Shown: positions 1,430 through 32,588 of the stretch, piece by piece
Position numbering within the stretch: position 1 is the first letter of the stretch
How the letters are laid out: each line of letters opens with the position of its first letter
IMG/VR virus record: IMGVR_UViG_3300040801_005752
Location: 1 to 33,047 of that record
Source of the DNA: a virus
Length of the DNA: 33,047 bases
Strand: one strand, 5' to 3'
Translations under genes and position numbers: made by a program
The notes under the pieces: model-generated
What the model was told of the DNA's origin: nothing
The model's database searches: none
The model's input: only the letters and a program-made list of their open reading frames with translations

Positions 1430-1458
1430 ACTATAGCGTGGAACGCCTTTGATCTAAA
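1430..1458 (-). promoter_or_regulatory. Promoter-like motif P1 (TTTAGA-17-TATAGT)
   Basis: On the minus strand TTTAGA (1458-1453) is followed by exactly 17 bp and TATAGT (1435-1430). The -35 box overlaps the TAG stop of the upstream 111-aa gene. The predicted transcript would begin near 1423, giving a leader of about 20 nt that contains only the GGAGGAG ribosome-binding site of the next gene. It matches the spacing of nine other sites in the window, with a more degenerate -35 and a better sigma70-like -10. Confidence 0.55.
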
Positions 1459-1789
1459 GCCTCAATAGCCGATCTGCATCGGAAAACTTCGCCGGACTCC
1501 GAGAGTCGTCGATAACAAGCCCCTCACAGGCCTCGATCTCGTGGTTCAGAGCCCTTTCCGGGGGATCATCCGGACCATAGGGCCTCACCAGGTGGGCCAC
1601 CGGCTGACCCGACATCGTTCTCCCAAGTGTCTGAACGTGAGGGTGTCCGGACTCCCCTTGCAATCCGGACTCGCCCGGGGACAGGTGGTGAAAGGAGAGC
1701 ACCCAGGAGTGGCTCAGGATGAGCAGGTCCCCCCTCCGGCTCACTATCAGGGGGGGACCGCCTCTCTGCGGCGTCAGGTGAAGCCTCAT
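1454..1789 (-). CDS. Small hypothetical protein following the tail fibre (111 aa)
   Basis: The ATG at 1787-1789 overlaps the fibre gene's stop by ATGA, so translation is probably coupled. The larger open frame extends further upstream inside the fibre gene, but that part is out-of-frame shadow. The 111-residue product is unrecognised: it starts MRLHLTPQRGGPPLIVSRRG, has a hydrophobic stretch LLILSHSWVLSFHH near residues 22-35 and a polar acidic C-terminus. A small protein directly after a fibre gene can be a fibre chaperone, and the hydrophobic stretch could instead be a short membrane segment. Neither is demonstrated. Confidence 0.65.
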   Translation of the reverse strand: MRLHLTPQRGGPPLIVSRRGDLLILSHSWVLSFHHLSPGESGLQGESGHPHVQTLGRTMSGQPVAHLVRPYGPDDPPERALNHEIEACEGLVIDDSRSPAKFSDADRLLRL

Positions 1790-2925
1790 GCCATTCTTCC
1801 TCGGGCAGTGAGGATCAGATCGAGCGAGCTCGCCTGATCCCCGAACGCAGACTCGATGTCGTTGTAGCTGGTGCGAACTCCCCACGCGGTCGCATCGGGG
1901 TTGCTGGCGCAGATGAGGCCCTGAAACGTGGCCCACCGCTTGCGCCAGTCTGCGTCTCCAATGGGGGTCCGGACGTTCCCCAGATCTCCCGGGTGCACCC
2001 CGCACACAGGCGGCTCGGCGAAGGCTGCGGGGAAGGTCACGAACTGAATGTCGTTGGAGGTAAAGGACATTCGCAGCCGCCTCTCGCAGTACTGACCCCC
2101 TCCGGAAGTTCTCTCGTATCGGCCGTTGCTGTTGGAGCCGGACTCGTGTATGCCCCCCGTTGGCCGACCATCGACTCCGAACGTCACCGGCCGCACAGAT
2201 GTCGCTGGGGTGGTGACGAGGGACCATCCCGACCATTCCCCATCGTTCCTGATTGACCGATAGTGCATGGTTTCGAAGTTTCGGCTGATGCAGATCTGAC
2301 CATGGCGGAATGGGTTGAAGTTGAAGCCCAGGATCATGCCGTACTCACTCTCGGGCCACCCTGTGGGGTCGGAGGACTGAGCGAGGGTGTAGATGCCCTC
2401 CGGCATGGCCGAGGGGCCAACCGCAGCCGACCCCTGGTGGTTGCGAAGCAGGCCCTCCAGAATGCCCTGAACCGACAGACCGTCGCGGTCGAAGGCGAAG
2501 CGACCCTCTCCCCCCACGGTGATGCCCAGGCGGTCCGCGGCGAGAAGGAAAAGGCCGGTGTTCCCGTCATCCTCGAACCCCAGGCCGGGAAGGGCGGGGG
2601 TGCCCGCGCCGAACCGACCAGTCTGCAGGCGGTCGTGGGCATCTGAGTACCGCGAGAGAAGGTTGTTGAGCTGACGAAGCACGTCGGTGCCGCGAGCCCC
2701 GCTGGGCTCGATGGCATAGGGAAGGCTCGAGGAGGTGACCCCACGGTAGGATCCCTGAAGAGTTAGGGAGAGGTTGTTGTTCACCGAGAGGATCTCGTAT
2801 CTGCGATCGTCGGGGCCCAGAAACGCATCTCCCGCGACGATGGACTCGGCCCATTCCGTGCCCGATCCGACCACTTCCGGACTCGCATTCGCAACGGAAA
2901 CGGTGCCCTGCCTATACCAACTCAT
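1786..2925 (-). CDS. Tail fibre protein (379 aa)
   Basis: The ATG at 2923-2925 overlaps the stop of the J-like gene by ATGA. The N-terminus MSWYRQGTVSVANASPEVVG followed by GTEW is the typical virion-attachment start of many phage fibres and tailspikes (W-Y-R-x-G-T-V-S-V, then G-x-G-T-x-W), residues 1-26. Residues 85-150 carry a GLGFEDDGNTGLF motif common in fibre shafts. The C-terminal 120 residues are beta-rich with a SFTSNDIQFVTFPAAF stretch, resembling receptor-binding tip domains of the H-type-lectin or collar kind. No autocleaving chaperone or hydrolase motif was seen. It likely attaches to the tail tip and contacts the host surface. Confidence 0.85.
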   Translation of the reverse strand: MSWYRQGTVSVANASPEVVGSGTEWAESIVAGDAFLGPDDRRYEILSVNNNLSLTLQGSYRGVTSSSLPYAIEPSGARGTDVLRQLNNLLSRYSDAHDRLQTGRFGAGTPALPGLGFEDDGNTGLFLLAADRLGITVGGEGRFAFDRDGLSVQGILEGLLRNHQGSAAVGPSAMPEGIYTLAQSSDPTGWPESEYGMILGFNFNPFRHGQICISRNFETMHYRSIRNDGEWSGWSLVTTPATSVRPVTFGVDGRPTGGIHESGSNSNGRYERTSGGGQYCERRLRMSFTSNDIQFVTFPAAFAEPPVCGVHPGDLGNVRTPIGDADWRKRWATFQGLICASNPDATAWGVRTSYNDIESAFGDQASSLDLILTARGRMA

Positions 2926-5900
2926 CGCCTGTGCTCCTGAACCTGAATTGTGGTGTAGCCGATGTTGCCCCAGCTCCCCCCTCCGTCGATTTTCACCCAG
3001 AGCTCATAGTCAAGCTCTCCTGAGGGGGGTGTTCGATCGTAGATCCGGAACGTGTGGCTGGAGGCGGAAAGCTCAGCCCCCGCGGGGCTGTTGGGGGGCA
3101 GCGCCACACCGTTTCGTCTCACCTGGAACGAGAAGTGACCCACGGCGAAGCCTTCTGGCCTCGTCCCGTCATACGGTCCCGCGAAGGAAGCGTTGAAGTC
3201 AACCTCCACGCGATAGGCCCCGTCGACCTGAATCTTGCGGTCCAAGACCTTGTGCCAGTTGGTGTTGTCGTTGATCTCTAGAAGGGAGGTTCGGACGTCG
3301 AACTTCTCCACCGTGATCTCGTCCTCCCCAATCATCGCAGTGGTGATGTCCGCCCTCCCAATGCGAGCGTAGGGGGTATACAGGCCGGCAGGGTAGGTGA
3401 TACCATCGATTGTCTGGGGGGTCGTGTAGAAGACGAAGGGCGTCTCAGTGTCTCCCGAGGGGGAGACGAGCCGAAAGCGGTCAGCGACGATGTCGAAGCT
3501 CGAGCGAGGCACGGGGGTGCCGTCCTCGTCCTCAACGACATCGGAGACGATATTGAGTCCCGCGACATGTCCGTTCACGTCTACTGTGATCGTACGGGTC
3601 GCCAGAATGCCATCTACCGACTGAGCCAGATCAGTCGCCGTGGCTCGGTTGCCATCCACCTCCGTCGACAGCGACTCGATACTTGTGCTGACCGCGCCGA
3701 GGTCGTCGGCAAACGCACTGATGGCCCGGGTCGCCTGGGCGTAGTTGTTGGAGAACGTGGCATCCAGACGGGTCACCACCTGGGACAGCGCATAGTCCTC
3801 CGTAGAGCGGACCAGCCTCTCCTGTTGCAAAGAGGAGAATGCCCCCCCGACCAGAGTGCTCAGTCGGCTGTAGTCGCTGATCTGAGCAAGGCGACCCGCC
3901 TCCATCTCTTGGCTCAGCTGATTGACCGACTCGAACCCATCCTCTCGATGGCGAGCGCGGGCCTCCTCCGCGGTGAGTATGGACTGCAGGTCAAGGAAGG
4001 CTGTCTCGTTGTTCAGAATGGACTGAGCAGCGTCGCCCGCCTCTCGGAAGGCCGCAGCTGCCTCCCGAGCCTCGCCGCGAATTGCCTCCCATGTTCGACG
4101 ATCAATATCCTCGGGGGAGATGCCGACGTCGGGGGCCCTGATGTCCACCCAGAGTGTGGGTTTGTATCGGCGCTCCCCGATGCGCCGAGCTCTGACCTGA
4201 TACCAGAGATCCCGCACGATCCCGTCGTAGATTATGGCCTCGCCCGAGCTGAGGGGGTAGGCCTGATCATGGACGATCTGCCCGGTGTCTCGAATGCGGA
4301 CCTCGACGCGAACGGACACACCAACCTGTGTGCTCAACCACTGACCTCGAAGGGCAGGGCGCAGAGGAGCCCCTTCAGAGCTCCGGATCGTGTACTGACC
4401 CACTGACCAGCCAGCCAGGTCCGCGTCGACGGGGGGCACCTTGCCGAAGCTGCCGGGGGTCTGAGGACGAGCAACAGTGAGTGAGTGGTCATAGTCCTCA
4501 GGATCGACCTCCTTCAGCAGAAACCCCACAGCCAGAGTGGTCAGGTCCACCTGCTTGCGCATGATCTCGAACTGCTTGTTGGTGTACCCGAACTCCTCGG
4601 AAGTCCAGCTGAGACTGTCGAGAGGGTTCAGAAACGCCGCCGTGCGGGGGAGCCAGACCTCCTGAAGCACCCCCCTGCGGCTGTCCTTCACCTTCTCGAC
4701 GGACACCCGCTGGCACTGACCCAGATAGGGGCAGGCCTCGAAGTCAAGGTCAAGAGTGCGCCGCTCGCCCCGGTCCTCTCTGAGATACTCGGGGAAGTTC
4801 CGGGCTGGAATGTCCCGAGGCTGCCAGAGGCTGTCCGGGTCTCGGTATGTGCCGGTGACATAGTTGAATGTGTTCTCGATGTCGAGGAATGGTGTATGGC
4901 GCCCCGGCATGTCCCGAATCAGGTCTTCGTCGGTGATGCTGAAAATCGGCGCTGCCGGCTCTCCCACCTGAATGATCCAGCTGCCGCCGACATCGGCTAT
5001 CCGGCCGTTGATGGCCGTGAGAATCTTCTCGACGTAGGAGAAGGGAGGTCGGTCAACCTTGACATCGATACTGGAGCGATACCGCCGCTCCTGGGCGCCT
5101 TCCCACATGATGCTCTGGTCGCAAACGGCGGCGGCGATGTCCCAGTAGTTGCTGGGCAGATCAGAGTCGCTGTAGCCTCCACCGTAGATCTCACCCGGGT
5201 CCAGCTTCAGGCCACGGAACAGGTTCCACAGCTGGGCGACGCCGTTCTCGTTGGCCTGAGTGTCCCCGAACGGCAGCAGACCGAGCAGCGGAGTGCGGGG
5301 GTCTCGAATTTCCGGGCCCTTGACCACCCCTGCGTGGGAGGGGATGCCGGTGAAGACCTCTCGGTCCATGTCCGTGGTGACGGCCATGTATGCGCGGCCG
5401 GTGCCGATGTTGGTGTCGACCCACGCATAGTCCGGGTCATCCGAGAATCTCTCAACAAGAGAGGGGATGGCGCGCGTCTGACGGCCGTTGCGCCACAGAA
5501 GCCAGAGGCGAGGCTTGTCATCATTGAAGAACTCCCCCGTGGCGGGCAGCCCGAATTCCTGCGCCTCGCCCTCGAATTCGACATAGGCGTCGTCGGTGAT
5601 CAGCTGAACCAGACTGTGTCCCGGAGCGTCACCCAGACCGATGAACTGCGTGACGTAGCGGTTGTCCTTGCCGTCGGTGAGGGGGGGAGACATGTGGACC
5701 CCCCCGGTGGCGGTTGTGCCCAGGACGAACACACTGGGGTGCTGCTCCCCATTGAGTGTGATGAGGGATTCGATGCCCGGATCTCTGCTATCCGCGAATG
5801 AGGGGGGCTTGGGCTTGAAGACATGGCTGAGGAGCAGGCCCACGCCGACCTTGACCGCGATGCTGGCCACAGTGCTGCCCCCGAGCACAGATGCCACAGC

Positions 5901-5972
5901 CACGACAACGGGGGCAGCATCGGCCGGAGCCGCAGCTGTGCACAGTGTGGCGGTTGCAAGAAGGATTCTCAT
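2922..5972 (-). CDS. Tail tip / host-specificity protein, lambda J-like (1,016 aa)
   Basis: The start is the ATG at 5970-5972, overlapping the upstream stop by ATGA. The open frame continues 28 codons further but those lie inside the upstream gene. Residues 1-52 are hydrophobic (MRILLATATLCTAAAPADAA then VVVAVASVLGG), as usual for J-type proteins. The middle is the long hub-like part of tail tip proteins. Residues about 620-787 are helical and Ala/Glu/Ser-rich. Residues about 790-860 carry TITVDVNGHVAGLNIVSD and FDIVADRFRLVSP, the signature of the DUF1983 part of lambda-J-like proteins. The last 130 residues are a beta-rich domain. In siphoviruses this protein forms the tail tip and binds the receptor. 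The gene order (minor tail, NlpC-like, J, fibre) supports the call. Confidence 0.9.
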   Translation of the reverse strand: MRILLATATLCTAAAPADAAPVVVAVASVLGGSTVASIAVKVGVGLLLSHVFKPKPPSFADSRDPGIESLITLNGEQHPSVFVLGTTATGGVHMSPPLTDGKDNRYVTQFIGLGDAPGHSLVQLITDDAYVEFEGEAQEFGLPATGEFFNDDKPRLWLLWRNGRQTRAIPSLVERFSDDPDYAWVDTNIGTGRAYMAVTTDMDREVFTGIPSHAGVVKGPEIRDPRTPLLGLLPFGDTQANENGVAQLWNLFRGLKLDPGEIYGGGYSDSDLPSNYWDIAAAVCDQSIMWEGAQERRYRSSIDVKVDRPPFSYVEKILTAINGRIADVGGSWIIQVGEPAAPIFSITDEDLIRDMPGRHTPFLDIENTFNYVTGTYRDPDSLWQPRDIPARNFPEYLREDRGERRTLDLDFEACPYLGQCQRVSVEKVKDSRRGVLQEVWLPRTAAFLNPLDSLSWTSEEFGYTNKQFEIMRKQVDLTTLAVGFLLKEVDPEDYDHSLTVARPQTPGSFGKVPPVDADLAGWSVGQYTIRSSEGAPLRPALRGQWLSTQVGVSVRVEVRIRDTGQIVHDQAYPLSSGEAIIYDGIVRDLWYQVRARRIGERRYKPTLWVDIRAPDVGISPEDIDRRTWEAIRGEAREAAAAFREAGDAAQSILNNETAFLDLQSILTAEEARARHREDGFESVNQLSQEMEAGRLAQISDYSRLSTLVGGAFSSLQQERLVRSTEDYALSQVVTRLDATFSNNYAQATRAISAFADDLGAVSTSIESLSTEVDGNRATATDLAQSVDGILATRTITVDVNGHVAGLNIVSDVVEDEDGTPVPRSSFDIVADRFRLVSPSGDTETPFVFYTTPQTIDGITYPAGLYTPYARIGRADITTAMIGEDEITVEKFDVRTSLLEINDNTNWHKVLDRKIQVDGAYRVEVDFNASFAGPYDGTRPEGFAVGHFSFQVRRNGVALPPNSPAGAELSASSHTFRIYDRTPPSGELDYELWVKIDGGGSWGNIGYTTIQVQEHRR

Positions 5973-6352
5973 GGCCGAAACGCTGCTGCTGCACGGTCGG
6001 TCGGCAGCACTCCCATGCCGTGAGTCATCACCACGCTGGCCCATGGGCCAGTACATACCCCAAGGCTGCCTCCGTCTGCGACGTCGAAGAACAGAATGTC
6101 ACCGATCTGAGCCTGAGGCACAGGGATCTCCTTCAAGTGGGCAGCCGCCAGTCCCCGCAGCCCGCCGGGGGGCAGCTGTTCAAGACCCTCCTTCAGAGAA
6201 GCGTAGTCGTACTCGGTGCCAAGCCTGTGCCCAGTCACGACCTCCACTGCTCCGGCGGCGAAGCGAGCACAGTCGTGCCTGCCGTAGTCGAGAGGCCGCC
6301 TGCGGCATTCTTCCAGGTATGACTGCAAACGGCGACGCTGGGCCGACTCCAT
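5969..6352 (-). CDS. NlpC/P60-like tail tip protein (DUF6950 type, 127 aa)
   Basis: Two starts are possible: GTG at 6355 (GTGA overlap with the upstream stop) or ATG at 6352 (TGATG overlap). The ATG is given here. Residues 22-41 contain DYGRHDCARFAAGAVEVVTG, the Cys-containing helix of the NlpC/P60-related families (Cys28), and residues 84-89 are GDILFF, the strand that follows in these proteins. The usual downstream catalytic His is not at its expected place, where the sequence reads SLGVCTG, although HGMG occurs at 111-114. Peptidase activity is therefore uncertain. Homologues sit between the minor tail and J-like genes in many siphoviruses and gene transfer agents, where they may help cross or remodel peptidoglycan during DNA entry. 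Confidence 0.85.
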   Translation of the reverse strand: MESAQRRRLQSYLEECRRRPLDYGRHDCARFAAGAVEVVTGHRLGTEYDYASLKEGLEQLPPGGLRGLAAAHLKEIPVPQAQIGDILFFDVADGGSLGVCTGPWASVVMTHGMGVLPTDRAAAAFRP

Positions 6353-6939: not shown

Positions 6940-7559
6940 GGCAGGGGCCTCAGTTGCTGAGTGAAGGAGAACGAAACGCTTCCGGAATGGTTGTCCGAAC
7001 CCTTGGAGGTCTGATAGCTGTTGGGGTCGACCACCGCCCGCATGAGGGGCCGAGCCACCCGCACCGCGTCGCCATCCCCCACGGCTCGGGGCAGGGGGGG
7101 CCAGATATCCAAATGGTCCAGAGAGAATGACGGATCGGGCTGAACTCTCCAGACTCGGTGTAGTGAGCGCCTGAATGGGGAGCCATACCCAACCGAGAAG
7201 GTCATGCCCGGCCGCCAGTCGAAACTCGCTGTGCTTGTGATCTTGACTCTCTCCTGTTCACCCAGGTAGATCAGCTCGGCAATGTCGGGGGCTCCAACCT
7301 TGTCCTGGCGAGGATCCCACATCAGAAAGCTGGTATTCGGCCGACACAGCTGCTCCACGACGGACTGAATCTCGGCAACGTCAGCATGGTTTCCGCCGGC
7401 AAACTCGACGCTTCCTTCCCACAGCACATCTCCTCGACTGACCGAGGCGTGGCCACCGCCTCGGGTGGAGTACCCCGCTCGCATGTCGCGAGGCTCCATC
7501 GAGATGGCCTTGATTCGGGGAGCCAGAATCTCCCAGAGGTCTGATCCCTGAGTAGTCAT
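6936..7559 (-). CDS. Minor tail protein, distal-tail-like (207 aa)
   Basis: The ATG at 7557-7559 overlaps the tape measure stop by ATGA. It is beta-rich, with LWEGSVEFAGGNHADVAEIQ (about residues 46-65), followed by SFLMWDPRQDKVG and near the C-terminus SGSVSFSFTQQL. This matches the general layout of small proteins directly after the tape measure gene that form the distal tail ring (lambda M or Dit position). Adjacent genes are the tape measure and another tail-tip protein, which supports the role. The specific family is not certain. Confidence 0.7.
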   Translation of the reverse strand: MTTQGSDLWEILAPRIKAISMEPRDMRAGYSTRGGGHASVSRGDVLWEGSVEFAGGNHADVAEIQSVVEQLCRPNTSFLMWDPRQDKVGAPDIAELIYLGEQERVKITSTASFDWRPGMTFSVGYGSPFRRSLHRVWRVQPDPSFSLDHLDIWPPLPRAVGDGDAVRVARPLMRAVVDPNSYQTSKGSDNHSGSVSFSFTQQLRPLP

Positions 7560-10500
7560 CGGTAGGGGCTGCTCCCAATCTGGCGAGTGCGGCTGGGCAG
7601 CACCCGCTTGTCGTATTCCGAGATCTGACCGGCGGACTGGCGACGAGCGCGCTTGTCGACCTCGGCGTTGAACAGTTCTGTGTTCAGGCCGATCGTTACG
7701 TGAACATTCTGCTCAACACCATCGCCAACCTGGCCCCGCTTGGGGTTGCGGATGACCTCCCCCTCGTGCACCATGGCAAGCTTCCCCCCCTTGCCATCCA
7801 TGCCTCCGGTGTTGCCCCACAGGGCCATCTGGCCACCCGTGTCGAAGCCAAGAACACTCGAGAATATGCCGGAGAGAAGCCCGCCGCCTCCGCCGCCTCC
7901 GAGGCCGAACAGCTGCTTGGCGAGAAGCTCAAGGCCCTGGTTGATCCCGCTGCTCAACAGAGACTCACCGATGCGGTTCAGGGCGCCGGACAGGGCATCC
8001 CCGAACGAGTCGGCGCCTCGGGCCGCGTCAGTGAGCGCCGAGCCGATGGTCTGAATTCCGGAGGTCACTTCCGGAAACTGCTGACGGAACATGTCGTTGC
8101 CGAGGTTCTCCATTGATCGGTTGTAGGTCTCAACATCAATCAGCCCTGCCCCATAGACCTCGTTGAGCTCTCGAAGGCTGTCTGCGTAAGACTCGGACTC
8201 GGTGCGGGTTGAGCGGAAGATCTGCTCGGCCTGTCGCTCAAGCTCCAGCTGATATCGCTCGGCCTCTCGGGAGGCCCCCCCTCTTCCGCCGCCTCCGCCG
8301 CCTCCGCCGCCCCCGCCGCCTCCGCCACCTCCGCCGCCACCTCCGCCGCCGCCTTCCCCGTCGCCTGCGAAGTTCTTCTGCGCCTTGAGAATTTCCTGCC
8401 GAAGATCCTCCACCTCGGTTGCCGTGGAAACGATGTCGTCTCGTGCCTCTTTGAGTTGAGACAGCCCGGCGATGTTCCCCGAGCGGATCGCGTCATACGC
8501 GGCGCCCCCCGAGTCGAAAGAGAATTCGGCCCCCGCCACGGCCCCGGCCTGGGATACCGGATCCTTGACGTTGGACAGTTGGGCCTCAGCTACTGCCCGC
8601 TGCCGATTGAGTGCCGTCATTTTCCGATTGGCGACGTCGAGGGCGGCAGCCATGCTGGCTGCTGCGTCAGCGCCTTGGTAGAGATTGGAGCTGACGTCGA
8701 CTGAGCCCAGAGCCGCAGCCTGGTTTGTGGCCTCGATGAGGGAGGCCAGAACCGACTGAGCCGCCTCGTTCATCTGGTCGGCGCCACCCGTCGCATCCTG
8801 TAGGAACACGATGAGGTTGGCCAGGGACGCGGCCTGCTCCTCAAAGGTTCTCTGCCCCGAGATCGCGATCAGCCGATCCTGGAAGTCGAACATCGCCTGT
8901 TCGCTGAGTCCGAGCTGAGTGGCGAGGACCGCCGCATCCCCCACGACCTGGTCAATCGCGGCTTCGGCCATCGCCCTCGAGAGGCTGCCCGCAGCCGAGG
9001 CAGATATCTGAAGTTCTCGGGAGAGACCGGAAGAGTCTCGCAGAGCGTCGGAGAGCCCCGGGAGAGAGCCTCCACCTCCACCGGCTGAACTTAGGGAGCC
9101 GAGGCTCTCCGAGGCCCTCTGCAGGGCTTCTGCGAGGGCGTCCGCATCGTCGACGGGGGGCAGAATGTCGCCAAGGCCCTCACCGGCCGCCTGCAGGCGC
9201 ACCTGGCCATTTGCGGCTCTCTCCAGGCCCTGCTCAAGTGCTGCGATGTTTTCGTTGATTGCAGTGAGGCGAGCCTGCTCTTCCGCAGTCAGCGCCTCGC
9301 TGGCCTGCGTCTGGGAGAGAATTACGTCGCGGGTCTCGATCAGCGCATCCCGAGTGTTGATGGCGTACTGAAGCCGCTGAAAGTCGCGACCACTCATCTC
9401 CTCCTGGGAAACACCTCCGGAAACCAGGCGGAGCTCCCGGATCTTGCTCTCCTCCTCGCCGATACGAGCGATGATGTCCTCGTACCCAAGAAGCTGCAGT
9501 TCCCTCTCCTGCCGCTCCTCTCGAAGGGAGATGATGTTCTCGCGGCGGGCCTGAGCCTCGCCCAGCTTGGTTCGGGCACTCTCTACCGACAGGGAGGCGC
9601 CATACAGCACCATGGTGTTCAGCTCGGAGGTTGCCTTGATCTCCTCCTCCTGAGCTCCAACGACCTCCTCGATGGCTCGAGCCTGAGCCTCAGAGGCACG
9701 GGCCGCAAAGTCGATCGGCCCGAATAGAGACGAGATGCCGTCTACGGAAGTGGCAAGAGCTCGGGTCAGCTGAACGAAACCCTGAGTCGTTGTTCGAAGG
9801 AAAAACGTGAGTCCGGCGTCCCCAAGAGACAGCACCAGGCCCTCAACCGCCGACGCGAGAGAGCGAAGATCCCCCCCGAGGTTGTCCCCCATGGTCTCTG
9901 CCATGCGAGCGGCCTCACCCTCCACGTTGCTCAGCTCTCGCGTCAGGGTCTCGAGGCCGTCGACGTTGCCTACCAGCGCGAGAACCGCAGCACTGGCCTC
10001 GCGGCCGAAGATGCGCATGGCATCAGTGGTGGTAAGTCCGGCCTCCTCAAGCGTCCGGAATACGTCGACGAGGTCGTTGGTCTCGGGGTTCAGGTCGGCC
10101 ATCTCCAAGCCCAGGGCCTCGATGGCCTTGGAGGCCTCGGCCGTGGGCTTCAGCAGAGAGGCCAGGATGCCTCGAAGGTTGGTGCCTGCCAGGGCGCCCT
10201 GAATACCCGCATCGGACAGAACGCCGATGGCCGCAGCCGCGTCGTTCATCGAGATGCCTATGGCCGCAGCGACCGGGCCAACGAACTTCATCGCGGCACC
10301 CAGCTGCGCGACGTTGGTATTGGCCCTGCTGCTCGCGGCAGCAAGGACATCGCTCGCCTGCCCGGCCTCGGAGGCGGAAATGCCGAAGCCCGACATGATG
10401 TTCGAGGCGACGTCAGCGGCCTGGGCAAGCCCCATTCCGGAAGCGGTAGCGAGATCCAGAACGTCTGGAATCGCCGAGACGGCCTGCTCAGCCTCAAAGC

Positions 10501-10894
10501 CGGCCATGCCCAGGAATCGAATGCCCTCAGCAGCCTGGCTGGCGCTGAACCTCGTCTCTGCGCCCAGGGTCCGGGCGGTCTGCTGCATCAGCTCAAGCTC
10601 TTCGGCGGTCGCCCGAGTTACGGCGGCCACACCGCTCATCGACTCCCCAAACTGGGAGATCGTGGAGGTTGCAGACGAGAGGCCCGCGAACACCCCCAGA
10701 GTGGCTGCGAGGGGAGCTGCAGCCCGACCAACCGCCAGCAGGCCCGCACCCAGGCCCTTGGTGCTGCGGCCGAGGCCCTCGGCTCCACGGCCAGCTGCGA
10801 CCGTGGCTCCGGTGAGGGCATTCAGGTCAGTGGTGGCCTTGACGGCCTGTCGGGAGTCGACCTCATACCCCAGGCGCGCGAAGTCAGTGATCAT
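7556..10894 (-). CDS. Tape measure protein (1,112 aa)
   Basis: The start is the ATG at 10892-10894 (MITDFARLGYEVDSRQ). It has a GGAGG box 9 nt upstream and overlaps the end of the G-T frame. Residues about 60-370 match the TP901-type tape measure core (PhageMin_Tail), for example FGESMSGVAAVTRATAEELE and FSASQAAEGIRFLGMAGFEA. Long helical, Ala/Glu-rich segments follow. Residues 848-870 are an unbroken run of 23 glycines. The C-terminus has GG-rich hydrophobic stretches and AMVHEGEVIRNP, a motif seen near the end of many tape measures. It sets tail length and passes into the host during DNA ejection. At roughly 1.5 angstrom per residue the predicted tail is about 165 nm, which is an inference. 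Confidence 0.95.
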   Translation of the reverse strand: MITDFARLGYEVDSRQAVKATTDLNALTGATVAAGRGAEGLGRSTKGLGAGLLAVGRAAAPLAATLGVFAGLSSATSTISQFGESMSGVAAVTRATAEELELMQQTARTLGAETRFSASQAAEGIRFLGMAGFEAEQAVSAIPDVLDLATASGMGLAQAADVASNIMSGFGISASEAGQASDVLAAASSRANTNVAQLGAAMKFVGPVAAAIGISMNDAAAAIGVLSDAGIQGALAGTNLRGILASLLKPTAEASKAIEALGLEMADLNPETNDLVDVFRTLEEAGLTTTDAMRIFGREASAAVLALVGNVDGLETLTRELSNVEGEAARMAETMGDNLGGDLRSLASAVEGLVLSLGDAGLTFFLRTTTQGFVQLTRALATSVDGISSLFGPIDFAARASEAQARAIEEVVGAQEEEIKATSELNTMVLYGASLSVESARTKLGEAQARRENIISLREERQERELQLLGYEDIIARIGEEESKIRELRLVSGGVSQEEMSGRDFQRLQYAINTRDALIETRDVILSQTQASEALTAEEQARLTAINENIAALEQGLERAANGQVRLQAAGEGLGDILPPVDDADALAEALQRASESLGSLSSAGGGGGSLPGLSDALRDSSGLSRELQISASAAGSLSRAMAEAAIDQVVGDAAVLATQLGLSEQAMFDFQDRLIAISGQRTFEEQAASLANLIVFLQDATGGADQMNEAAQSVLASLIEATNQAAALGSVDVSSNLYQGADAAASMAAALDVANRKMTALNRQRAVAEAQLSNVKDPVSQAGAVAGAEFSFDSGGAAYDAIRSGNIAGLSQLKEARDDIVSTATEVEDLRQEILKAQKNFAGDGEGGGGGGGGGGGGGGGGGGGGGGGRGGASREAERYQLELERQAEQIFRSTRTESESYADSLRELNEVYGAGLIDVETYNRSMENLGNDMFRQQFPEVTSGIQTIGSALTDAARGADSFGDALSGALNRIGESLLSSGINQGLELLAKQLFGLGGGGGGGLLSGIFSSVLGFDTGGQMALWGNTGGMDGKGGKLAMVHEGEVIRNPKRGQVGDGVEQNVHVTIGLNTELFNAEVDKRARRQSAGQISEYDKRVLPSRTRQIGSSPYR
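8285..8353 (-). repeat. GGN-codon repeat encoding 23 consecutive glycines
   Basis: A 69-bp stretch made only of GGC, GGA, GGT and GGG codons on the minus strand (gcc/tcc/acc/ccc triplets on the plus strand). It encodes glycines 848-870 of the tape measure and is followed by Arg-Gly-Gly. Codons vary at the third position, with a loose three-codon GGA-GGC-GGC rhythm that suggests expansion by replication slippage. Confidence 0.9.
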
Positions 10895-11282
10895 TCTCCA
10901 GAGCCTCCACGTGAATAGCACCCGCCAGAATGATCTCGTAGATCACCGGATGGAAGGGGCACCTCTCGGAGAAGTATCCCGCACAGAAGTGCTCGCTCAT
11001 CTCATGAACGATCCGGACGTCCTCGAGACTCACGGAACCCCCCTGAAGTTCACGCCAGGCAGAGAGCTCGGCCCAGGTCAGGGGGGAGGGTCCCCCCTGG
11101 TCGACGGTGTAGCGGCCAGCCGACTCGAACAGCATGATGTGTTCCTCCAGCCCCTCGGTGTTGGGCATGGGGGCGTTCACTTTCTGAGACTCGAGCAGCT
11201 GGCCACGACTCAGCTTTCCTCCGGCCGATCGGCTGAGCCATCCTCGGTGGCCGGCCCACTCTCCGAGGTGGCGGAGAAGTTT
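10884..11282 (-). CDS. Tail assembly chaperone G-T: frameshift extension (T part)
   Basis: This -1 frame segment follows the slippery site in the upstream G gene and ends with a TGA at 10884-10886. It has no convincing start of its own. Read through the shift, residues 1-136 come from G and about 132 residues from here, giving a fusion of about 268 aa. The extension includes KLSRGQLLESQKVN, PSPLTWAELSAWRELQGGS and a Cys-containing segment EHFCAGYFSERCPFHP. Its place directly before the tape measure gene is the classic G/G-T arrangement. In lambda-like phages G-T guides tail tube assembly around the tape measure and is absent from the virion. Confidence 0.8.
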   Translation of the reverse strand, partial: KLLRHLGEWAGHRGWLSRSAGGKLSRGQLLESQKVNAPMPNTEGLEEHIMLFESAGRYTVDQGGPSPLTWAELSAWRELQGGSVSLEDVRIVHEMSEHFCAGYFSERCPFHPVIYEIILAGAIHVEALENDH

Positions 11283-21802: not shown

Positions 21803-21853
21803 TCTCACATGCTCACTCTCACATGCTCACTCTCACATGCTCACTCTCACATG
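21803..21853. repeat. 14-bp direct repeat, 3.6 copies (TCTCACATGCTCAC)
   Basis: TCTCACATGCTCAC occurs three times in perfect tandem (21803, 21817, 21831), followed by a fourth partial copy (21845-21853). Unit length and exactness are typical of protein-binding iterons. It lies in the intergenic stretch between the nuclease gene and the terminase genes. Confidence 0.9.
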
Positions 21854-21881
21854 TGCGACGCGCGCAGGGCAGGCAGCCTCG

Positions 21882-21954
21882 AGCACGAGCGTTGGGAGAG
21901 CTCGGGGGCCCGGGGGCCGGGGAAGCCCCCTATCGCTCGTGCTGCGAGCTCTCC
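21882..21954. other. Interleaved inverted repeats with pseudoknot topology
   Basis: Two perfect 10-bp inverted repeats interleave in the order a, b, a', b'. Arm a is AGCACGAGCG (21882-21891) with a' CGCTCGTGCT (21934-21943). Arm b is GGAGAGCTCG (21895-21904) with b' CGAGCTCTCC (21945-21954). Three bases separate a and b, and one base separates a' and b'. Between b and a' lies a G/C-rich segment that can form its own stem (GGGGC 21905-21909 with GCCCC 21925-21929). The 425-bp stretch 21598-22022 holds this element, the two tandem arrays and the late promoter, and no convincing gene. Confidence 0.6.
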
Positions 21955-22022
21955 GCGCGTCTCCGACCCCGGCAGGGCTCGATGGCCCCCTAGGCACGCC
22001 GCCGGGCGCTCCGGTGCGGACG

Positions 22023-22460
22023 TCACACGGACCTCGCGGAGTCAAACACTGCATACCAGAGATCGGAGAAGATCTGAGGGTGAAGTCGATGGTCGTCTAC
22101 CCATCGAGAAGACCAGATGGGATCGTGCCTCTGGTATCGACGATCGAGAGGACAGTCGGAGATGTTCCAGAGGCCGATGGAGGATCCCCCCGGGCCCAGC
22201 CGGGTGCTGAGCTCGAGTGCGAGTATGCTCACTCTCGCTCGCCCGAGCTCACGTGCGCGGATCGCCTGCTCGGGACGCAGCCTGTCGTCGTTGAGCTTGA
22301 GCTCGATCCACCCCGAGACGGGAGACAGCAGTGCGGCAGACCAGAAGATGTCGGGGAATCCGGCCGGGCGCTTGAACTCAGTTCGCCATGTGGTGACGGT
22401 CGAGGGCAGATGTCTGCTCATCGTCTGCCACAGTCCGGACTCTCGAGTGATGGTGGTCAT
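22023..22460 (-). CDS. VRR-NUC-like PD-(D/E)xK nuclease (145 aa)
   Basis: The start is the ATG at 22458-22460, with AAGGA 7 nt upstream. The frame extends 65 codons further, but that part crosses repeats and has no such site. Residues about 28-34 contain KRPAGFPDIFW and about 49-55 GWIELKL, followed by RLRPEQ. This is the G-x-P-D ... E-x-K ... Q arrangement of the VRR-NUC branch of PD-(D/E)xK nucleases. Phage members act on branched or flap DNA during replication, recombination or packaging. It lies downstream of the replication gene in the same direction. The C-terminal 60 residues (SSIGLWNISDCPLDRRYQRH) are unrecognised. Confidence 0.8.
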   Translation of the reverse strand: MTTITRESGLWQTMSRHLPSTVTTWRTEFKRPAGFPDIFWSAALLSPVSGWIELKLNDDRLRPEQAIRARELGRARVSILALELSTRLGPGGSSIGLWNISDCPLDRRYQRHDPIWSSRWVDDHRLHPQIFSDLWYAVFDSARSV

Positions 22461-22917
22461 GTGCTCATCCTTGTCTCTGCGTGTTGCATGAAGATGGGGG
22501 ATCCCCCCGCAGCAGTGGTGTCTCTCCCAGTCAATCTTCCACATCCAATTATCCACCCAGAACCGTCGTTTTACACCACAGAATTCCGTCAGGAGCCCCG
22601 GGGGCCCCCAGGTTCCCTTTTTTCCAAGTCTCACGGGTGACAACCAGGTATACATTTATGTTCTCACACGCGCAAACGCGCGCGGCCGCGCCCGCCGTGC
22701 AAAGAGCAAACCGGGGCCCCGGGAGCTCCCGGGGCTCCCGAGGGGTTTTCCGCTTCAACCCGAGGGGGTTGCCCTCTTTTTGCCTCGGCAAGCCCCCTCT
22801 CAACACAAACCCGCGGCGACCCCAAACGGGGCTCCTGGGGCCCCCGAAGGCCCATGACCCAGCTTCTCGCGACCTCAAACGGGGCTCCTGAGGCTCCCGA
22901 ACTTCCCACAACTTTTC
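22461..22917. other. Structured non-coding region, candidate replication origin
   Basis: This 457-bp stretch between the nuclease and the replication gene holds no convincing gene. It is dense in repeats of a GGGGCTCC / GGAGCCCC type. Near 22816-22901 there is a direct repeat pair, listed separately. There is a long bulged stem (22762-22773 with 22787-22799), a GGGGGATCCCCC palindrome at 22496-22507 just before the nuclease ribosome-binding site, and short AT-rich islands near 22647-22660 (TATACATTTATG) and 22547-22573. A replication origin beside a primase-helicase gene would look like this, but no assay-type evidence is available. Confidence 0.45.
22816..22901. repeat. 33-bp direct repeat pair (30/33 identical)
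   Basis: Positions 22816-22848 and 22869-22901 match at 30 of 33 bases, spaced 53 bp apart. Both start GCGACC, pass through AAACGGGGCTCCTG and end CCCGAA. They lie 17-102 bp after the stop of the replication gene. The GGGGCTCC core recurs at 22727-22740 and downstream of the early operon at 25391-25417. Confidence 0.85.
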
Positions 22918-25287
22918 TCATCCCGAAGCCCTCGCAGTGAGGAATCTCGAGCTCAGAAGTGTGGAGCACCGCGCCCAGTCGGACCACTTCGCGGGCATGT
23001 CGTCCACCACGACCACAGAATTTCGCCTCTTGTACACAATCGACTGACCCAGATAGTGGCCCCCGTGGTGCATCTTTCGGTCCCCTCTGCGCACATTCTT
23101 TCGGGCACTTTCGATGTCTCTGGAGCACACATCGAAGCCCATGCCCTCCAGAAATCGGGTCACTTCGGCAGGCTTGGGCACGTACCTCACACCCCGATCC
23201 TCACAGAAACTCCTCAGGTCTCCCCCGACCAGCATGTCCTCCTCACCGCTGATGTGGTCCGCCAGCAGCTGCTCCCAGGGGCTCACTTGGGACTCCATCA
23301 TCTCCTCCTTGATCGTGGTGAGGGGGGCATCCTGACACAGCCTCGCCCACCCCTCGGGCTTCAGCATCTCTCTCCCATACCATCTGCCAAGCCACAGCAG
23401 ATGCTCGGCGCCACCCCCATTCAGCCACTGCCGATACGCCCCGAAGAACGACTTGTCGGCCTCACTCTTGGGCAGCTTCAGCCAGCGATCCGCCAGCATC
23501 TCCAGCAGGGGATTGCCGCCCCCGGCATGGGGGGTTCTGCTGCTCGTCACATGGGGGATGAACCATCGACGATCCCCCTTGACAACCGAGATAGACGAGA
23601 AGAAGTTGGAGTTGAACAGGAAACAGGTCTCCGCATCCACCGTCCTCTCCCCCTCGTACATCTCCCTGACACTGACCCGATCCTCAGTGATGTACTGCTT
23701 CAGGCGATTGGCGACCTTGAAGCCTCCCTCGTCCTTCATCTCACTCACGATGATCAGCTGGGATCCGTCCGCCCAGTGGCTATACTGCTCAGTCAGAGCG
23801 TGACCGCTCAACCATGTGCAGTTTCGCTGACCGAGCAGCAGGGTGAGAGTGTCGGCGAGGGTGGTCTTCCCGGTGCCGTGGACCTCGGAGATCAGCAGGG
23901 GGGACCACCTCATTCGGTGGCAGGCAATCACCGCGCAGCACCAGCGAATCAGCTCGTGCCTCTCGCGACGATCCGGAATCAGGTGTCGCATGAACACGAG
24001 AAATGGGCTCGCCGCATGCCGCCAGTGGCCCTTCCGGGGCTCCCGAGCTCGCAGCGGCCCGGGGCGGTACTTGTTCAACACCTTGTCGCCCAGCGAGTCC
24101 TCGAAGATCCAGCCGGCCCCGACCCGCCGGACCCCCTTCTCCTCGGCGTGGTCCACCATGAATGGGCGATAGCCCACTCGGGAGATGGACATCAGATGCT
24201 CACTCTTGAACATCTCCTGCGACGGCACCTTCTTGTGCGGGGGGAACTTCGACCTGTAGGCATTGTCGAACTGTGCCGTGGTCAGCTTCATGCGGGGATC
24301 GCCGCGATACACCAGCTTGTTGGAATCCACCTCGAAGAACTGGGACACGAACTCTCGATTCAGAACCCAGTCTGTCTCCCCATTGTCGAGCAGCACCTGC
24401 TTCATGGCAGGCTGCGCCAGCTTCACGCTCAACATCAGCTTGTCGAGGGAATGTTCGAAGCAGGGATCGGCCATGTCCCATCCGCGGGGCGCCCCATTGC
24501 CCATATGATGGTACATCAGAACGAGGCTCGCATTCACGAGCTCACGGCTGACGGCATGCATGGCTTCGTATCCCGCCCGATCGTTGTCGGGCATGAGGAA
24601 CACCTCAACATCACGGCCGAACTGCAGCCAGGGGCCCGACGCCGCACAGGCTGTGCCGCCGGGCCAGGTGCAGTGTCCGTACTCCGACAGCCAGTCGGCC
24701 CAGGGGTGCACCGGGGGGAGCTCCTCGTCGGGCACACCATTCAGCGCTGACTCCTCCCTTCTTCGCTTCGAGGCCACAGCGTCGAGTGCCGCGTCGACGG
24801 CCTTCTCTCCCTCGTGCACCATCACCTTCGATCGGCCTCGCCAGTCGCCATACAGCGGGGCGGGCAGCCCGCTGGGCCAGCCCGCCTGCTGCCAGGTGAC
24901 GCCGTCGTAGATGTGGGGCAGGCACTTCTTTTCCTTTAGGACCGTCCCGTTCCACTCAGTGCCGGCCTCGAGGCGATGGACGACGAGCAGGGCCCGCCGC
25001 GCCTCGTCCTCGTACACATACTCCCGCGCGCCCTCGGGCAGCGGGGGGAGCTTCACACCCACGGGACAGGAGACGGGAGCGATGATCGACAGCAGCCTCT
25101 GGCTGTTCTTCTTGATCCACTCCGCCTGCTTCTTGCTGGGGTCAGGCACCCAGTCGGGCTTGTCCAGTCCTCCATTCTCCGTCACGACGATGCGCGAGGC
25201 ACCCGCGCCAGAGTCTCCGTTGCGATAGATCAGATAGACGCCGCCGCCAGTGGCAGTGGCGCCGATCTGTTGGAAATAGTTGCTCAT
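22918..25287 (-). CDS. Replication protein: Toprim domain plus SF3/DUF5906-type helicase (789 aa)
   Basis: ATG at 25285-25287 with GGAGAA about 8 nt upstream. Residues 155-170 hold a Toprim glutamate motif, VMVHEGEKAVDAALDA (E159-K162). Residues 229-239 hold VFLMPDNDRAG with the D-x-D pair, and WDMAD follows at 270-274. The helicase half has Walker A GTGKTT (471-476), Walker B LIIVSEMKD (511-519), and FLFNSN (556-561) with GDRRWF (571-576), the arrangement of VapE/DUF5906 and SF3-type phage helicases. It probably primes and unwinds DNA at the origin, like other phage primase-helicase fusions. No zinc-binding primase domain or DNA polymerase was seen nearby. Confidence 0.9.
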   Translation of the reverse strand: MSNYFQQIGATATGGGVYLIYRNGDSGAGASRIVVTENGGLDKPDWVPDPSKKQAEWIKKNSQRLLSIIAPVSCPVGVKLPPLPEGAREYVYEDEARRALLVVHRLEAGTEWNGTVLKEKKCLPHIYDGVTWQQAGWPSGLPAPLYGDWRGRSKVMVHEGEKAVDAALDAVASKRRREESALNGVPDEELPPVHPWADWLSEYGHCTWPGGTACAASGPWLQFGRDVEVFLMPDNDRAGYEAMHAVSRELVNASLVLMYHHMGNGAPRGWDMADPCFEHSLDKLMLSVKLAQPAMKQVLLDNGETDWVLNREFVSQFFEVDSNKLVYRGDPRMKLTTAQFDNAYRSKFPPHKKVPSQEMFKSEHLMSISRVGYRPFMVDHAEEKGVRRVGAGWIFEDSLGDKVLNKYRPGPLRAREPRKGHWRHAASPFLVFMRHLIPDRRERHELIRWCCAVIACHRMRWSPLLISEVHGTGKTTLADTLTLLLGQRNCTWLSGHALTEQYSHWADGSQLIIVSEMKDEGGFKVANRLKQYITEDRVSVREMYEGERTVDAETCFLFNSNFFSSISVVKGDRRWFIPHVTSSRTPHAGGGNPLLEMLADRWLKLPKSEADKSFFGAYRQWLNGGGAEHLLWLGRWYGREMLKPEGWARLCQDAPLTTIKEEMMESQVSPWEQLLADHISGEEDMLVGGDLRSFCEDRGVRYVPKPAEVTRFLEGMGFDVCSRDIESARKNVRRGDRKMHHGGHYLGQSIVYKRRNSVVVVDDMPAKWSDWARCSTLLSSRFLTARASG

Positions 25288-25335: not shown

Positions 25336-25364
25336 ACTATGCCGGGTGCCGAGGGGGAAGGAAA
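25336..25364 (-). promoter_or_regulatory. Promoter-like motif for the replication operon (TTTCCT-17-CATAGT)
   Basis: On the minus strand TTTCCT (25364-25359), exactly 17 bp, then CATAGT (25341-25336). The -35 departs from the family consensus TTTACT by one base and is preceded by GC as in other members. The predicted transcript starts near 25329 and the leader runs to the start of the replication gene. Between the stop at 25424 and this site lies a GC-rich stem region (25391-25417) built of GGGGCTCC units. Confidence 0.6.
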
Positions 25365-26292: not shown

Positions 26293-26343
26293 GTCGTTTC
26301 TTCCTTTCTTGTGGAGCGGCCCAGCGCCGCCCCGGTAACAACA

Positions 26344-26372
26344 CTTATGCCCAATCGTGCCGCAGAAGTAAA
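26344..26372 (-). promoter_or_regulatory. Early promoter-like motif P26 (TTTACT-17-CATAAG)
   Basis: TTTACT (26372-26367), 17 bp, CATAAG (26349-26344) on the minus strand, flanked by CCACTTTACTTCTGC and GGGCATAAGTGTTGTTACC. A leader hairpin (8-bp stem, 26313-26320 with 26326-26333, with one G-U pair in the minus-strand RNA) follows the predicted start. Before the promoter, 26390-26410 can form a 7-bp stem GACGAAC / GTTCGTC. Confidence 0.72.
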
Positions 26373-26389
26373 GTGGAATAGCTGCCTCC

Positions 26390-26410
26390 GACGAACTTTT
26401 CTTGTTCGTC
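26390..26410 (-). terminator. Hairpin between DUF2786 gene and promoter P26
   Basis: GACGAAC (26390-26396) and GTTCGTC (26404-26410) form a perfect 7-bp stem. No T-tract follows on the minus strand, so intrinsic termination is uncertain. Its position just before a promoter parallels the terminators of the other cassettes. Confidence 0.4.
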
Positions 26411-26450
26411 AGAGCGCAACCTCCTGTGCCGTAAGGCTCGTCGCGCTCGC

Positions 26451-27517: not shown

Positions 27518-27564
27518 TGTTTCTTCCTTTCTGACCGGAGCGAGCCGCCGCCCCGGTAACAACA

Positions 27565-27593
27565 CTTATGCCCAATGACGCCGTAGAAGTAAA
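27565..27593 (-). promoter_or_regulatory. Early promoter-like motif P27 (TTTACT-17-CATAAG)
   Basis: TTTACT (27593-27588), 17 bp, CATAAG (27570-27565) on the minus strand. The upstream terminator hairpin (27597-27622) ends three bases before the -35. The leader contains a stem ACCGG / CCGGT (27534-27538 with 27553-27557) and AGAAAGGA seven bases before the ATG of the 93-aa gene. Confidence 0.75.
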
Positions 27594-27596
27594 GTG

Positions 27597-27622
27597 GAAA
27601 AGTTGGCTCCGGGCAACTTTTC
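27597..27622 (-). terminator. Intrinsic-type terminator upstream of P27
   Basis: GAAAAGTTG and CAACTTTTC form a 9-bp stem with an eight-base loop, five bases after the stop of the 130-aa gene (27628). The CTTTTC arm acts as a short T-tract. The stem is symmetrical, so it could terminate in both directions. Confidence 0.7.
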
Positions 27623-29535: not shown

Positions 29536-29581
29536 GTGAGAAGCGTCCTTTCTGGTGGGCCCCTGTGGCCCGACAACAACA

Positions 29582-29610
29582 CTTGTGCCCAACACAGAAG
29601 CAGAAGTAAA
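29582..29610 (-). promoter_or_regulatory. Early promoter-like motif P29 (TTTACT-17-CACAAG)
   Basis: TTTACT (29610-29605), 17 bp, CACAAG (29587-29582) on the minus strand, with the usual CCACTTTACTTCTGC flank. The leader hairpin GGGCC / GGCCC (29557-29561 with 29567-29571) follows and AGAAAGGA comes before the gene. Confidence 0.75.
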
Positions 29611-29612: not shown

Positions 29613-29640
29613 GGAAAAGCTGCCCTCGCGCAGCCTTTCC
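29613..29640 (-). terminator. Terminator hairpin upstream of P29
   Basis: GGAAAAGCTGC and GCAGCCTTTCC form an 11-bp stem with one G-U pair in the minus-strand RNA and a six-base loop, a few bases after the stop at 29645. It ends two bases before the -35 of P29. Confidence 0.65.
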
Positions 29641-30535: not shown

Positions 30536-30578
30536 CGTTTTGTCCTTTCTGGTGGGCCCCTGCGGCCCGGTAACAACA

Positions 30579-30607
30579 CTTATGCCCAGTTCCGCGGCAG
30601 AAGTAAA
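30579..30607 (-). promoter_or_regulatory. Early promoter-like motif P30 (TTTACT-17-CATAAG)
   Basis: TTTACT (30607-30602), 17 bp, CATAAG (30584-30579) on the minus strand. The flanks are CCACTTTACTTCTGC upstream and GGGCATAAGTGTTGTTACC downstream. The leader has a GGGCC / GGCCC stem (30554-30558 with 30564-30568) and then AGAAAGGA (30550-30543). Confidence 0.78.
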
Positions 30608-30610: not shown

Positions 30611-30636
30611 GAAAAGTTGCCCCGAGGCAACTTTTC
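30611..30636 (-). terminator. Terminator hairpin upstream of P30
   Basis: GAAAAGTTGCC and GGCAACTTTTC form a perfect 11-bp stem with a four-base loop, five bases after the stop of the 282-aa gene. The CTTTTC arm serves as a short T-tract and the structure is symmetric, so it may work in both directions. It ends three bases before the -35 of P30. Confidence 0.75.
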
Positions 30637-31490: not shown

Positions 31491-31529
31491 GGTCATCCTT
31501 TCTTGGGTCTGAGCATCATGCCCACAACC

Positions 31530-31558
31530 AGCATGCCTTGTGATAAGGCAGAAGTAAA
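31530..31558 (-). promoter_or_regulatory. Divergent early promoter-like motif, leftward (TTTACT-17-CATGCT)
   Basis: TTTACT (31558-31553), 17 bp, CATGCT (31535-31530) on the minus strand. The -10 is weaker than in other members. Its -35 lies 23 bp from the -35 of the rightward promoter, and the two -35 regions form an inverted repeat AAGTAAAG / CTTTACTT. Confidence 0.6.
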
Positions 31559-31581
31559 GTCCGAAGAGTTGCCCTCACCGC

Positions 31582-31610
31582 TTTACTTTTGGGCACTTGT
31601 GGGGCAGAAG
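31582..31610 (+). promoter_or_regulatory. Divergent early promoter-like motif, rightward (TTTACT-17-CAGAAG)
   Basis: TTTACT (31582-31587), 17 bp, CAGAAG (31605-31610) on the plus strand, flanked by CCGCTTTACTTTTGG. The leader continues to AGAAAGGA before the ATG at 31638. A remnant of the terminator arm (GAAGAGTTGCCC, 31563-31574) lies upstream. Confidence 0.6.
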
Positions 31611-31637
31611 GAGGTTGTCAACTCAGAAAGGACCGAC

Positions 31638-32024
31638 ATGACCTGCTCCCCCCGAGACGCCGATGCTGTGTACATCACTCCCGGCGGCAACGTGCTGCAC
31701 GTGGTTCACGACGCCCGTGCGACGTTCGTCTACCTGAATTCTATCCCGGGCGCGATGTTCTCCCTCAACCCGGAGTCGTTCAACGACAGGCCAGCAGCCG
31801 CCCACTCGCTGCTTCGGGGTATCGACGCGCTGGAGGGGGGCATGTCCGAGCAGGTCGAGGCGCTGCTGGGGGACTACTCTCGCATGTCGCTGCGGGTCCG
31901 CCGGGTGGGGCACGTCACCGAGCTCGTCGAGTTCAGCGGCCGCGTCGCTGTCGTCATCTACATGCCGCTCGAGTTCTCGGCTCAGGCTCTGGCTGCGGCT
32001 CTTGTGCCGTATCTGGCCCCGTGA
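31638..32024 (+). CDS. Hypothetical protein on the divergent strand (128 aa)
   Basis: ATG at 31638 with AGAAAGGA five bases upstream, the early leader motif. Sequence MTCSPRDADAVYITPGGNVL with a beta-strand core (LHVVHDARATFVYLNSIPGA, RVAVVIYMPLEFSAQALAAA). The stop overlaps the next gene by GTGA. No family recognised. The compact strand-rich layout and its operon partner suggest a soluble cytoplasmic role. Confidence 0.75.
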   Translation: MTCSPRDADAVYITPGGNVLHVVHDARATFVYLNSIPGAMFSLNPESFNDRPAAAHSLLRGIDALEGGMSEQVEALLGDYSRMSLRVRRVGHVTELVEFSGRVAVVIYMPLEFSAQALAAALVPYLAP

Positions 32025-32551
32025 ACATCTTCGCCCTGGACCCCGACCCCCGGCGCTGCGCTCAGGCCCACGCCAACACACATGTCGTCAAGATGCCGAC
32101 GGAGATGGGGCAGATGATGTCGACCGCGCTGCGGGGGGTCGTTTCTTCCGATCTCGCTGACTCCCTGGGTGTCTACCGCGTGACCCATCCGCGCCACCCC
32201 TCGACGCTCTGGGTGGGCGAGACGCGAGACAACTGGCTGTGGGGCACCGAGCTTCTCGCCGAGCTCTGCGCCGAGTACCGCCACCGCTACGGTCGTCATC
32301 GGGGCGAGGGCCACGCCACGGCTCGCCTCATCCCCACTTTTCAGGCTGCTGCACACCACATCCCCCCGGGGCCCCTCACCCCCTGGGCCATGGCTCTGCC
32401 AGACGACCTCAAGCGGCATCATCCTGTGCTGGCCTATCGACACTACTACGTTCGGGACAAGGCGCATCTGCTCAAGTACAGGGACAGAGAGCCCCCCTTC
32501 TGGATCACCACCCTGGGGGGTTTTGCTCAAGTGGTTGATTTGCAAGGGTAA
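32021..32551 (+). CDS. Pyrimidine dimer DNA glycosylase-like protein (176 aa), GTG start
   Basis: The GTG at 32021 overlaps the previous stop by GTGA. The longer frame starting further left is shadow. The start MNIFALDPDPRRCAQAHANT then HVVKMPTEMGQMMSTALRG matches a widespread phage family that begins 'M-N-I-x-x-L-(D/S)-x-D-P-x-x-A-A-x-x-x-x-x-x-H-V-V-K-M'. The C-terminal HPVLAYRHYYVRDKAHLLKY then PPFWI fits the family's 'Y-R-x-Y-Y-x-x-x-K' ending. Databases often label this family pyrimidine dimer DNA glycosylase, but activity in phages is mostly unproven. A role in DNA repair or nucleotide handling is possible. Confidence 0.8.
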   Translation: MNIFALDPDPRRCAQAHANTHVVKMPTEMGQMMSTALRGVVSSDLADSLGVYRVTHPRHPSTLWVGETRDNWLWGTELLAELCAEYRHRYGRHRGEGHATARLIPTFQAAAHHIPPGPLTPWAMALPDDLKRHHPVLAYRHYYVRDKAHLLKYRDREPPFWITTLGGFAQVVDLQG

Positions 32552-32559
32552 CTTTCCGC

Positions 32560-32588
32560 TTTACTTGTGCAGCCCTGCGCCCCATACT
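32560..32588 (+). promoter_or_regulatory. Rightward early promoter-like motif (TTTACT-17-CATACT)
   Basis: TTTACT (32560-32565), 17 bp, CATACT (32583-32588) on the plus strand, with the flank GGGTAACTTTCCG upstream, which resembles the right arm of the early terminators. The leader carries AGAAAGGA before the ATG at 32630. Confidence 0.72.

Follow-up and report, generated by a model that had tools for sequence, protein, structure and literature searches.

The phage genome analysed here carries nine promoter-like sites that share a core of fixed spacing, and at four of these sites the core is embedded in a larger cassette resembling the promoter early stem-loops (PeSLs) of T4-type phages. We consider it likely that the nine sites are promoters for the host RNA polymerase with a 17-bp core, which at four sites would lie inside a duplicated terminator-promoter-leader cassette. 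This is in our view a good finding, not a startling one.

The sequence is an IMG/VR virus record of 33,047 bases with 64% GC (the window, meaning this whole stretch of DNA). The record is linear; it is perhaps a fragment, from which a regulator gene may be missing. Its genes are those of a tailed phage, most of them on the minus strand, and encode among others a tail fibre (2922-6056), the tape measure (7556-10921), head morphogenesis (13030-14064), the major capsid protein (16051-17079), the portal (17862-19505), the terminase large subunit TerL (19502-21292), a gp3-like packaging protein (ORF 20980-21597) and a primase (22918-25287). To the right of the primase gene lie small genes, mostly of unassigned function, with plus-strand genes from 31638 on. 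Terminase, capsid, portal and tape measure match tailed-phage families other than T4-type, and no T4 structural gene was seen among the gene products compared. Neither tRNA genes nor Rfam matches were found in the 33,047-base window. A protein encoded at 32021-32551, between two of the promoters, matches PHROG 624, which is annotated 'DNA binding protein' in T4-like Acinetobacter phages (about 39% identity). Several repeats were noted along the way. Repeats of 9 bp (CCGCCGCCT) follow one another at 8259-8366, within the tape measure gene, and give a repetitive stretch of small residues. Three 33-bp direct repeats within a plus-strand ORF at 32948-33047 reach the very end of the record and may mark the point where the assembly broke. 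Between the primase and terminase genes about 1.2 kb (21600-22920) have little coding signal, apart from a possible minus-strand ORF near 22040-22440; this gap holds 14-bp tandem units (ATGCTCACTCTCAC) at 21795-21857 and long GC-rich inverted repeats at 22586-22744, and is possibly a replication or packaging region.

A first-pass annotation had described ten sites as one promoter family spread across the whole phage. All ten sequences were recovered at their positions with hexamers exactly 17 bp apart; eight have the perfect TTTACT that had been reported, and a C precedes the TTT in all ten, one more than the nine for which CTTT had been claimed. At the proposed CATA-type -10, six sites begin with CATA; the remainder read CACA (29582), CATG (31530), CAGA (31582) and TATA (1430). 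Membership was tested by leave-one-out matrices, each built from the other nine sites and compared with 200 dinucleotide-preserving shuffles. Nine sites exceeded the shuffles, whereas site 1430 was at chance level (3.6 expected). With the core columns, at most 0.01 matches per 33 kb are expected for each of the nine. When both blocks were scanned for with the spacer varied from 13 to 22 bp, no rival set of sites appeared at other spacings, and the matches with 19- and 21-bp spacers at 21640-21642 are site 21644 out of register. The cassette copies are related to each other and are therefore not independent observations. In cross-training restricted to core columns, matrices from the four cassette sites and from the five other sites recovered each other, and a matrix from the five non-cassette sites only placed all four cassette sites within the top nine places of the window; hence the duplicated copies alone do not account for the family. 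When a 20-column matrix was trained on the cassettes alone, 25336 and 32560 scored weaker (E 1.22 and 0.57).

All ten sites lie wholly outside the gene calls. These calls cover about 88% of the window and were made manually, a few of them roughly; as a check, codon scores were examined for the gaps at 1430 and 21644, and start codons behind the sites for the other gaps. Both strands are used as claimed, with seven of the nine sites on the minus and two on the plus strand. The description of the family as running across the whole phage was overstated: eight of nine sites cluster within the rightmost 8 kb, the ninth is 21644 ahead of the terminase genes, and the left 21 kb have none of them. We conclude that the proposal is largely right: nine sites form one family, CTTTACTT-N16-CATA, with 17 bp between the hexamers. 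Site 1430 (1430-1458, minus strand, TTTAGA-17-TATAGT) was dropped, as it failed in every matrix version (E 3.2-3.6, rank 11 to 13 with a core matrix untrained on it). It agrees with the ordinary sigma70 hexamers at 9 of 12 positions, a degree of agreement for which chance predicts 2.3 sites in 20 kb, and is possibly a plain sigma70-type promoter or a chance match.

The leftmost member (21644-21672, minus strand, TTTACT-17-CATATA; E <0.01 with the core and 0.005 with the broad, 20-column matrix) is non-coding by codon score and stands before the terminase and structural genes. The -10 box of the next (25336-25364, minus, TTTCCT-17-CATAGT) lies 48 nt before the primase ATG; with E 0.01 (core) and 0.11 (broad) it is the weakest of the nine in the broad matrix. 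Four minus-strand cores belong to cassette copies 1 to 4, namely TTTACT-17-CATAAG at 26344-26372, 27565-27593 and 30579-30607 (copies 1, 2 and 4) and TTTACT-17-CACAAG at 29582-29610 (copy 3). A divergent pair consists of a leftward half at 31530-31558 (minus, TTTACT-17-CATGCT) and a rightward half at 31582-31610 (plus, TTTACT-17-CAGAAG), and the last core, TTTACT-17-CATACT, is at 32560-32588 on the plus strand. The two promoters of the pair (31530-31610) stand back to back with 23 bp separating their -35 hexamers, and would drive a 284-aa protein of unassigned function leftward and small genes rightward. Judged from this layout, a regulator could readily control both promoters from here.

We numbered core positions from the predicted start, set 7 nt after the -10 box. 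C-36, T-35, T-34, T-33, T-29 and A-11 are present in all ten sites, and A-32, C-31, T-30, T-42, G-14, C-12 and A-9 in nine of ten. At position -7 the nine family sites have T in three, G in five and A in one. Start codons follow 27 to 51 nt downstream of the -10 box at eight sites, and a Shine-Dalgarno sequence lies between the -10 box and the start codon at seven. Taken together, the fixed spacing, the invariant A-11, the start-codon distances, the Shine-Dalgarno sequences and the use of both strands make the reading of these sites as promoters of one family well supported at the level of sequence.

The ribosome site has the heptamer AGAAAGG. Of nine copies in the window, eight precede a start codon, and seven of these lie behind a family site: at 26303-26309, 27526-27532, 29547-29553, 30544-30550 and 31497-31503 on the minus strand (sites 26344, 27565, 29582, 30579 and 31530) and at 31625-31631 and 32616-32622 on the plus strand (31582 and 32560). 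The eighth, at 26073, serves a gene that has no promoter of the CTTTACTT family. Since AGAAAGGA stands downstream of each, we treat the seven sites as an early-type class, with early and late labels inferred from gene content. Only the core is present at 25336 (primase) and 21644 (terminase), which lack both AGAAAGG and the cassette hairpins. Thus, the statement that one promoter class serves early and late genes holds for the core only, and its late part refers to the single site 21644, which is without the flanking elements of the early class. The use of one promoter class had been called unusual; in a small phage it is less so than claimed.

The four cassette copies, at 26344, 27565, 29582 and 30579, are about 115 bp long with 75% mean column identity. 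Each has the order terminator-like hairpin, promoter core, GTGTTGTT, leader hairpin, AGAAAGGA ribosome site and start codon. The 5' part comprises CTGA, a hairpin of the GAAAAG...CTTTTC type, CCACTTTACTTCTG or a close variant and then an unconserved stretch; the 3' part comprises TGGGCA(T/C)AAGTGTTGTT, the GC-rich leader hairpin and AGAAAGGA shortly before the ATG. The first-pass annotation overlooked this arrangement, which explains much of the uniformity at these four sites.

Terminator-like hairpins were found on the minus strand at 27597-27622 (copy 2, 9 pairs), 29613-29640 (copy 3, 11 pairs) and 30611-30636 (copy 4, AAAAGTTGCC-TCGG-GGCAACTTTT, 11 pairs). In three copies the hairpin starts about 5 bases past the stop codon of the upstream ORF, and no terminator-like stem on the minus strand between 20 and 33 kb is longer than those of these three. 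This region has 15 terminator-like sites against 4.7 expected, and the region from 1 to 20 kb has one. The T-run behind the cassette hairpins is interrupted (TTTTCCACTTTACTT). In copy 1 (26344) the common stem is broken and a different 11-bp stem lies slightly upstream (26386-26414, minus strand, an inverted repeat with fold z -6.2), and of the half-sites GGCAGCTATTCCAC remains but its partner does not. From this pattern we infer that a terminator overlaps in function with an upstream promoter element. The leader hairpins, all on the minus strand, lie at 26313-26333 (p 0.006), 27534-27557 (p 0.008), 29557-29571 (p 0.05) and 30554-30568 (p 0.026) in copies 1 to 4, with p values against mononucleotide shuffles. 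Across the four copies 88.6% of cells pair and shuffled ones do likewise; with only four related rows, pair counts cannot prove the structure.

These features suggest how the system may work. Host RNA polymerase, most likely with the vegetative (sigma70-type) factor, would read the nine sites via the CTTTACTT -35 region and the CATA-type -10. In the cassettes, the hairpin behind the upstream gene would end the transcript of that gene, and the promoter directly behind it would start a new one. The leader hairpin near the 5' end may then protect or shape the new transcript, and the common AGAAAGGA ribosome site would start translation. Such a cassette would insulate short gene units and give them equal expression. 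Three more early-type sites would work with the core and ribosome site, and the primase gene and the terminase/structural operon with the core only. While the family, its spacing and positions, the hairpin potential and the common leader and ribosome site can be read from the DNA, the transcription start, termination, the choice of sigma factor and the idea that the copies arose by duplication are predictions.

The 17-bp spacing at every site is within the 16-18 bp of sigma70-type promoters, and the A-11 present in all ten sites is typical of sigma70-family promoters. TTT replaces TTG in all ten sites, leaving 3-4 of 6 matches to a TTGAC-like -35. Judged by the hexamers, this TTT and a T-7 in three of nine sites only are poor for sigma70. 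The nine sites agree with TTGACA/TATAAT at 7-8 of 12 positions, a score that decides neither for nor against the variant host sigma or helper factor proposed in the first-pass annotation. The -35 of the E. coli lac promoter is TTTACA, hence sigma70 can work with TTT if an activator assists. Among the phage proteins scanned, which covered part of the ORFs, neither a sigma factor nor a polymerase was found. We tentatively prefer the vegetative host sigma, possibly helped by an upstream element or activator.

A different division of labor is conceivable, in which an undescribed phage-encoded activator binds the CTTTACTTCTG block, perhaps together with the neighbouring GGCAACTTTTCC half-site, and redirects host polymerase by replacing the sigma -35 contact, in the manner of MotA and AsiA at T4 middle promoters, while host sigma still reads the -10. 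We regard this as unlikely, yet it is the alternative to be taken most seriously. The conserved block runs from -36 to -27, longer than a hexamer and without the TTG that a -35 would have. If the reading were true, one phage-specific switch would control the structural operon as well as the early-type units of either strand. The MotA box of T4 has the consensus WWTGCTTTA, which gave a single one-mismatch match in the window against 1.9 expected and none at the sites. T4 middle promoters resemble the present sites in having a conserved non-TTGACA block upstream of the -10; there the MotA box (GCTT) takes the place of the -35, with its centre at -30 and a distance of 13 bp to a near-perfect -10 (PMC2988021). 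However, these promoters demand an excellent -10 (PMC2988021), and neither the MotA box nor such a -10 was seen at the present sites. No MotA- or AsiA-like protein was recognised among the proteins scanned, and with such sites before most early-type genes, little would remain from which the activator itself could be expressed.

That an alternative host sigma factor reads the sites seems improbable. The pattern CTTTAC-15-nnnCAT fits the sigma32 type (CTTGAA, CCCCAT) at 6-10 of 12 positions in the nine sites, best at 32560 (CCCCAT) and 21644 (CGCCAT); but most sites have only the CAT of CCCCAT. Agreement with sigma28 is 4-7 of 12. A sigma54 reading was prompted by GGGCATAAGTGTTGTT, and GGGCATAAGTGTTGT in the cassettes resembles a sigma54 site at 7-8 of 11 positions. 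It was rejected, as GG-N10-GC (-24/-12) is absent at eight of ten sites and occurs in 25336 and 31582 at no common position. We give least credence to the repeats being operator or recombination sites near gene starts instead of promoters. The cassette hairpin is indeed also an 11-bp DNA dyad centred near -50 and adjoining gene starts, and the dyads of the extended start-associated sequences (ESAS) of cluster K mycobacteriophages have likewise been interpreted as protein-binding sites (PMC3203893). Nevertheless, the two-block core of fixed spacing is found in nine sites and the dyad is intact in three only. Furthermore, the SAS consensus GGGATAGGAGCCC is at chance level, with one match at up to 2 mismatches in the window against 1.5 expected, not at any of the sites.

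Composite cassettes of this kind have precedents, of which the PeSLs of T4-type phages (Arbiol 2010; Comeau 2014; via PMC4503421 and PMC3950731) appear nearest as far as these accounts describe them, with the SAS/ESAS elements as a more distant analogue. The title of Comeau 2014 names a composite conserved promoter-terminator motif, and such a motif, repeated between small early-type genes, is what the present phage has in common with them. A stem-loop that would act as terminator is joined to the promoter in one intergenic motif (three of four cassettes scored terminator-like), and four copies, 75% identical, lie between genes of one genome. As these sources present PeSLs, the differences are that our phage is not T4-type, that its promoter core differs, that it has only four full copies and that its cassette also fixes a leader hairpin and ribosome site. 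PeSLs are described there as mediating gene shuffling between related phages, of which the present phage gives no evidence. We suggest that the cassettes may work like PeSLs but do not file them as members, because the phage is of another kind. A similar promoter-terminator arrangement is known from the archaeal virus HGTV-1 (PMC3950731). SAS/ESAS are alike in being a conserved block repeated at gene starts, and about half of them are directly preceded by an inverted repeat; however, SAS is a translation-start motif and the 17-bp ESAS arms have a variable spacer and little RNA-pairing support (PMC3203893), whereas the common part here is a promoter core of fixed spacing.

Streptomyces phage phiC31 has many near-identical, phage-specific non-consensus promoters before its early genes, several of them adjoining terminators; we liken them to the present sites by this general description, not by sequence. 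Searches for relatives of the motif itself gave 39 IMG/VR stretches matching a loose core pattern, with one occurrence each and no convincing repeated set in a matrix scan. Longer cassette patterns had no IMG/VR match. The 80 TerL-related bacterial loci (1.6 Mb) held only scattered single or double motif matches, and no relatives of the capsid and early genes were found in contig collections. No other contig with a repeated motif set was found, in a search that may omit records very near the window.

The closest relative of TerL is from Roseovarius (60%) and its relatives are mostly alphaproteobacterial, the capsid is closest to phages of beta- and gammaproteobacteria and the tail protein to Paracoccus and Rhizobium-group phages. 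As judged from such matches, these affinities do not fix the host. Nor does AGAAAGGA, since it fits a 16S tail ending in CCUCCUUUCU that is common to many bacterial groups. The chromosome of a Roseovarius MAG (OX638333.1) carries three TerL relatives at three places with the same 60% best-segment identity, possibly repeated prophages.

What is new, on the sequence evidence, is a cassette variant with an atypical -35 in a non-T4 phage; the packaging trick as such is already known from other phages. If our reading is true, composite terminator-promoter cassettes would not be confined to T4-type phages, and an unrelated phage would have its own version that also fixes leader and ribosome site. 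Such cassettes would give inserted genes ready-made, insulated expression, and the non-consensus core would, given a host, be a handle for finding the polymerase or factor on which the phage relies.
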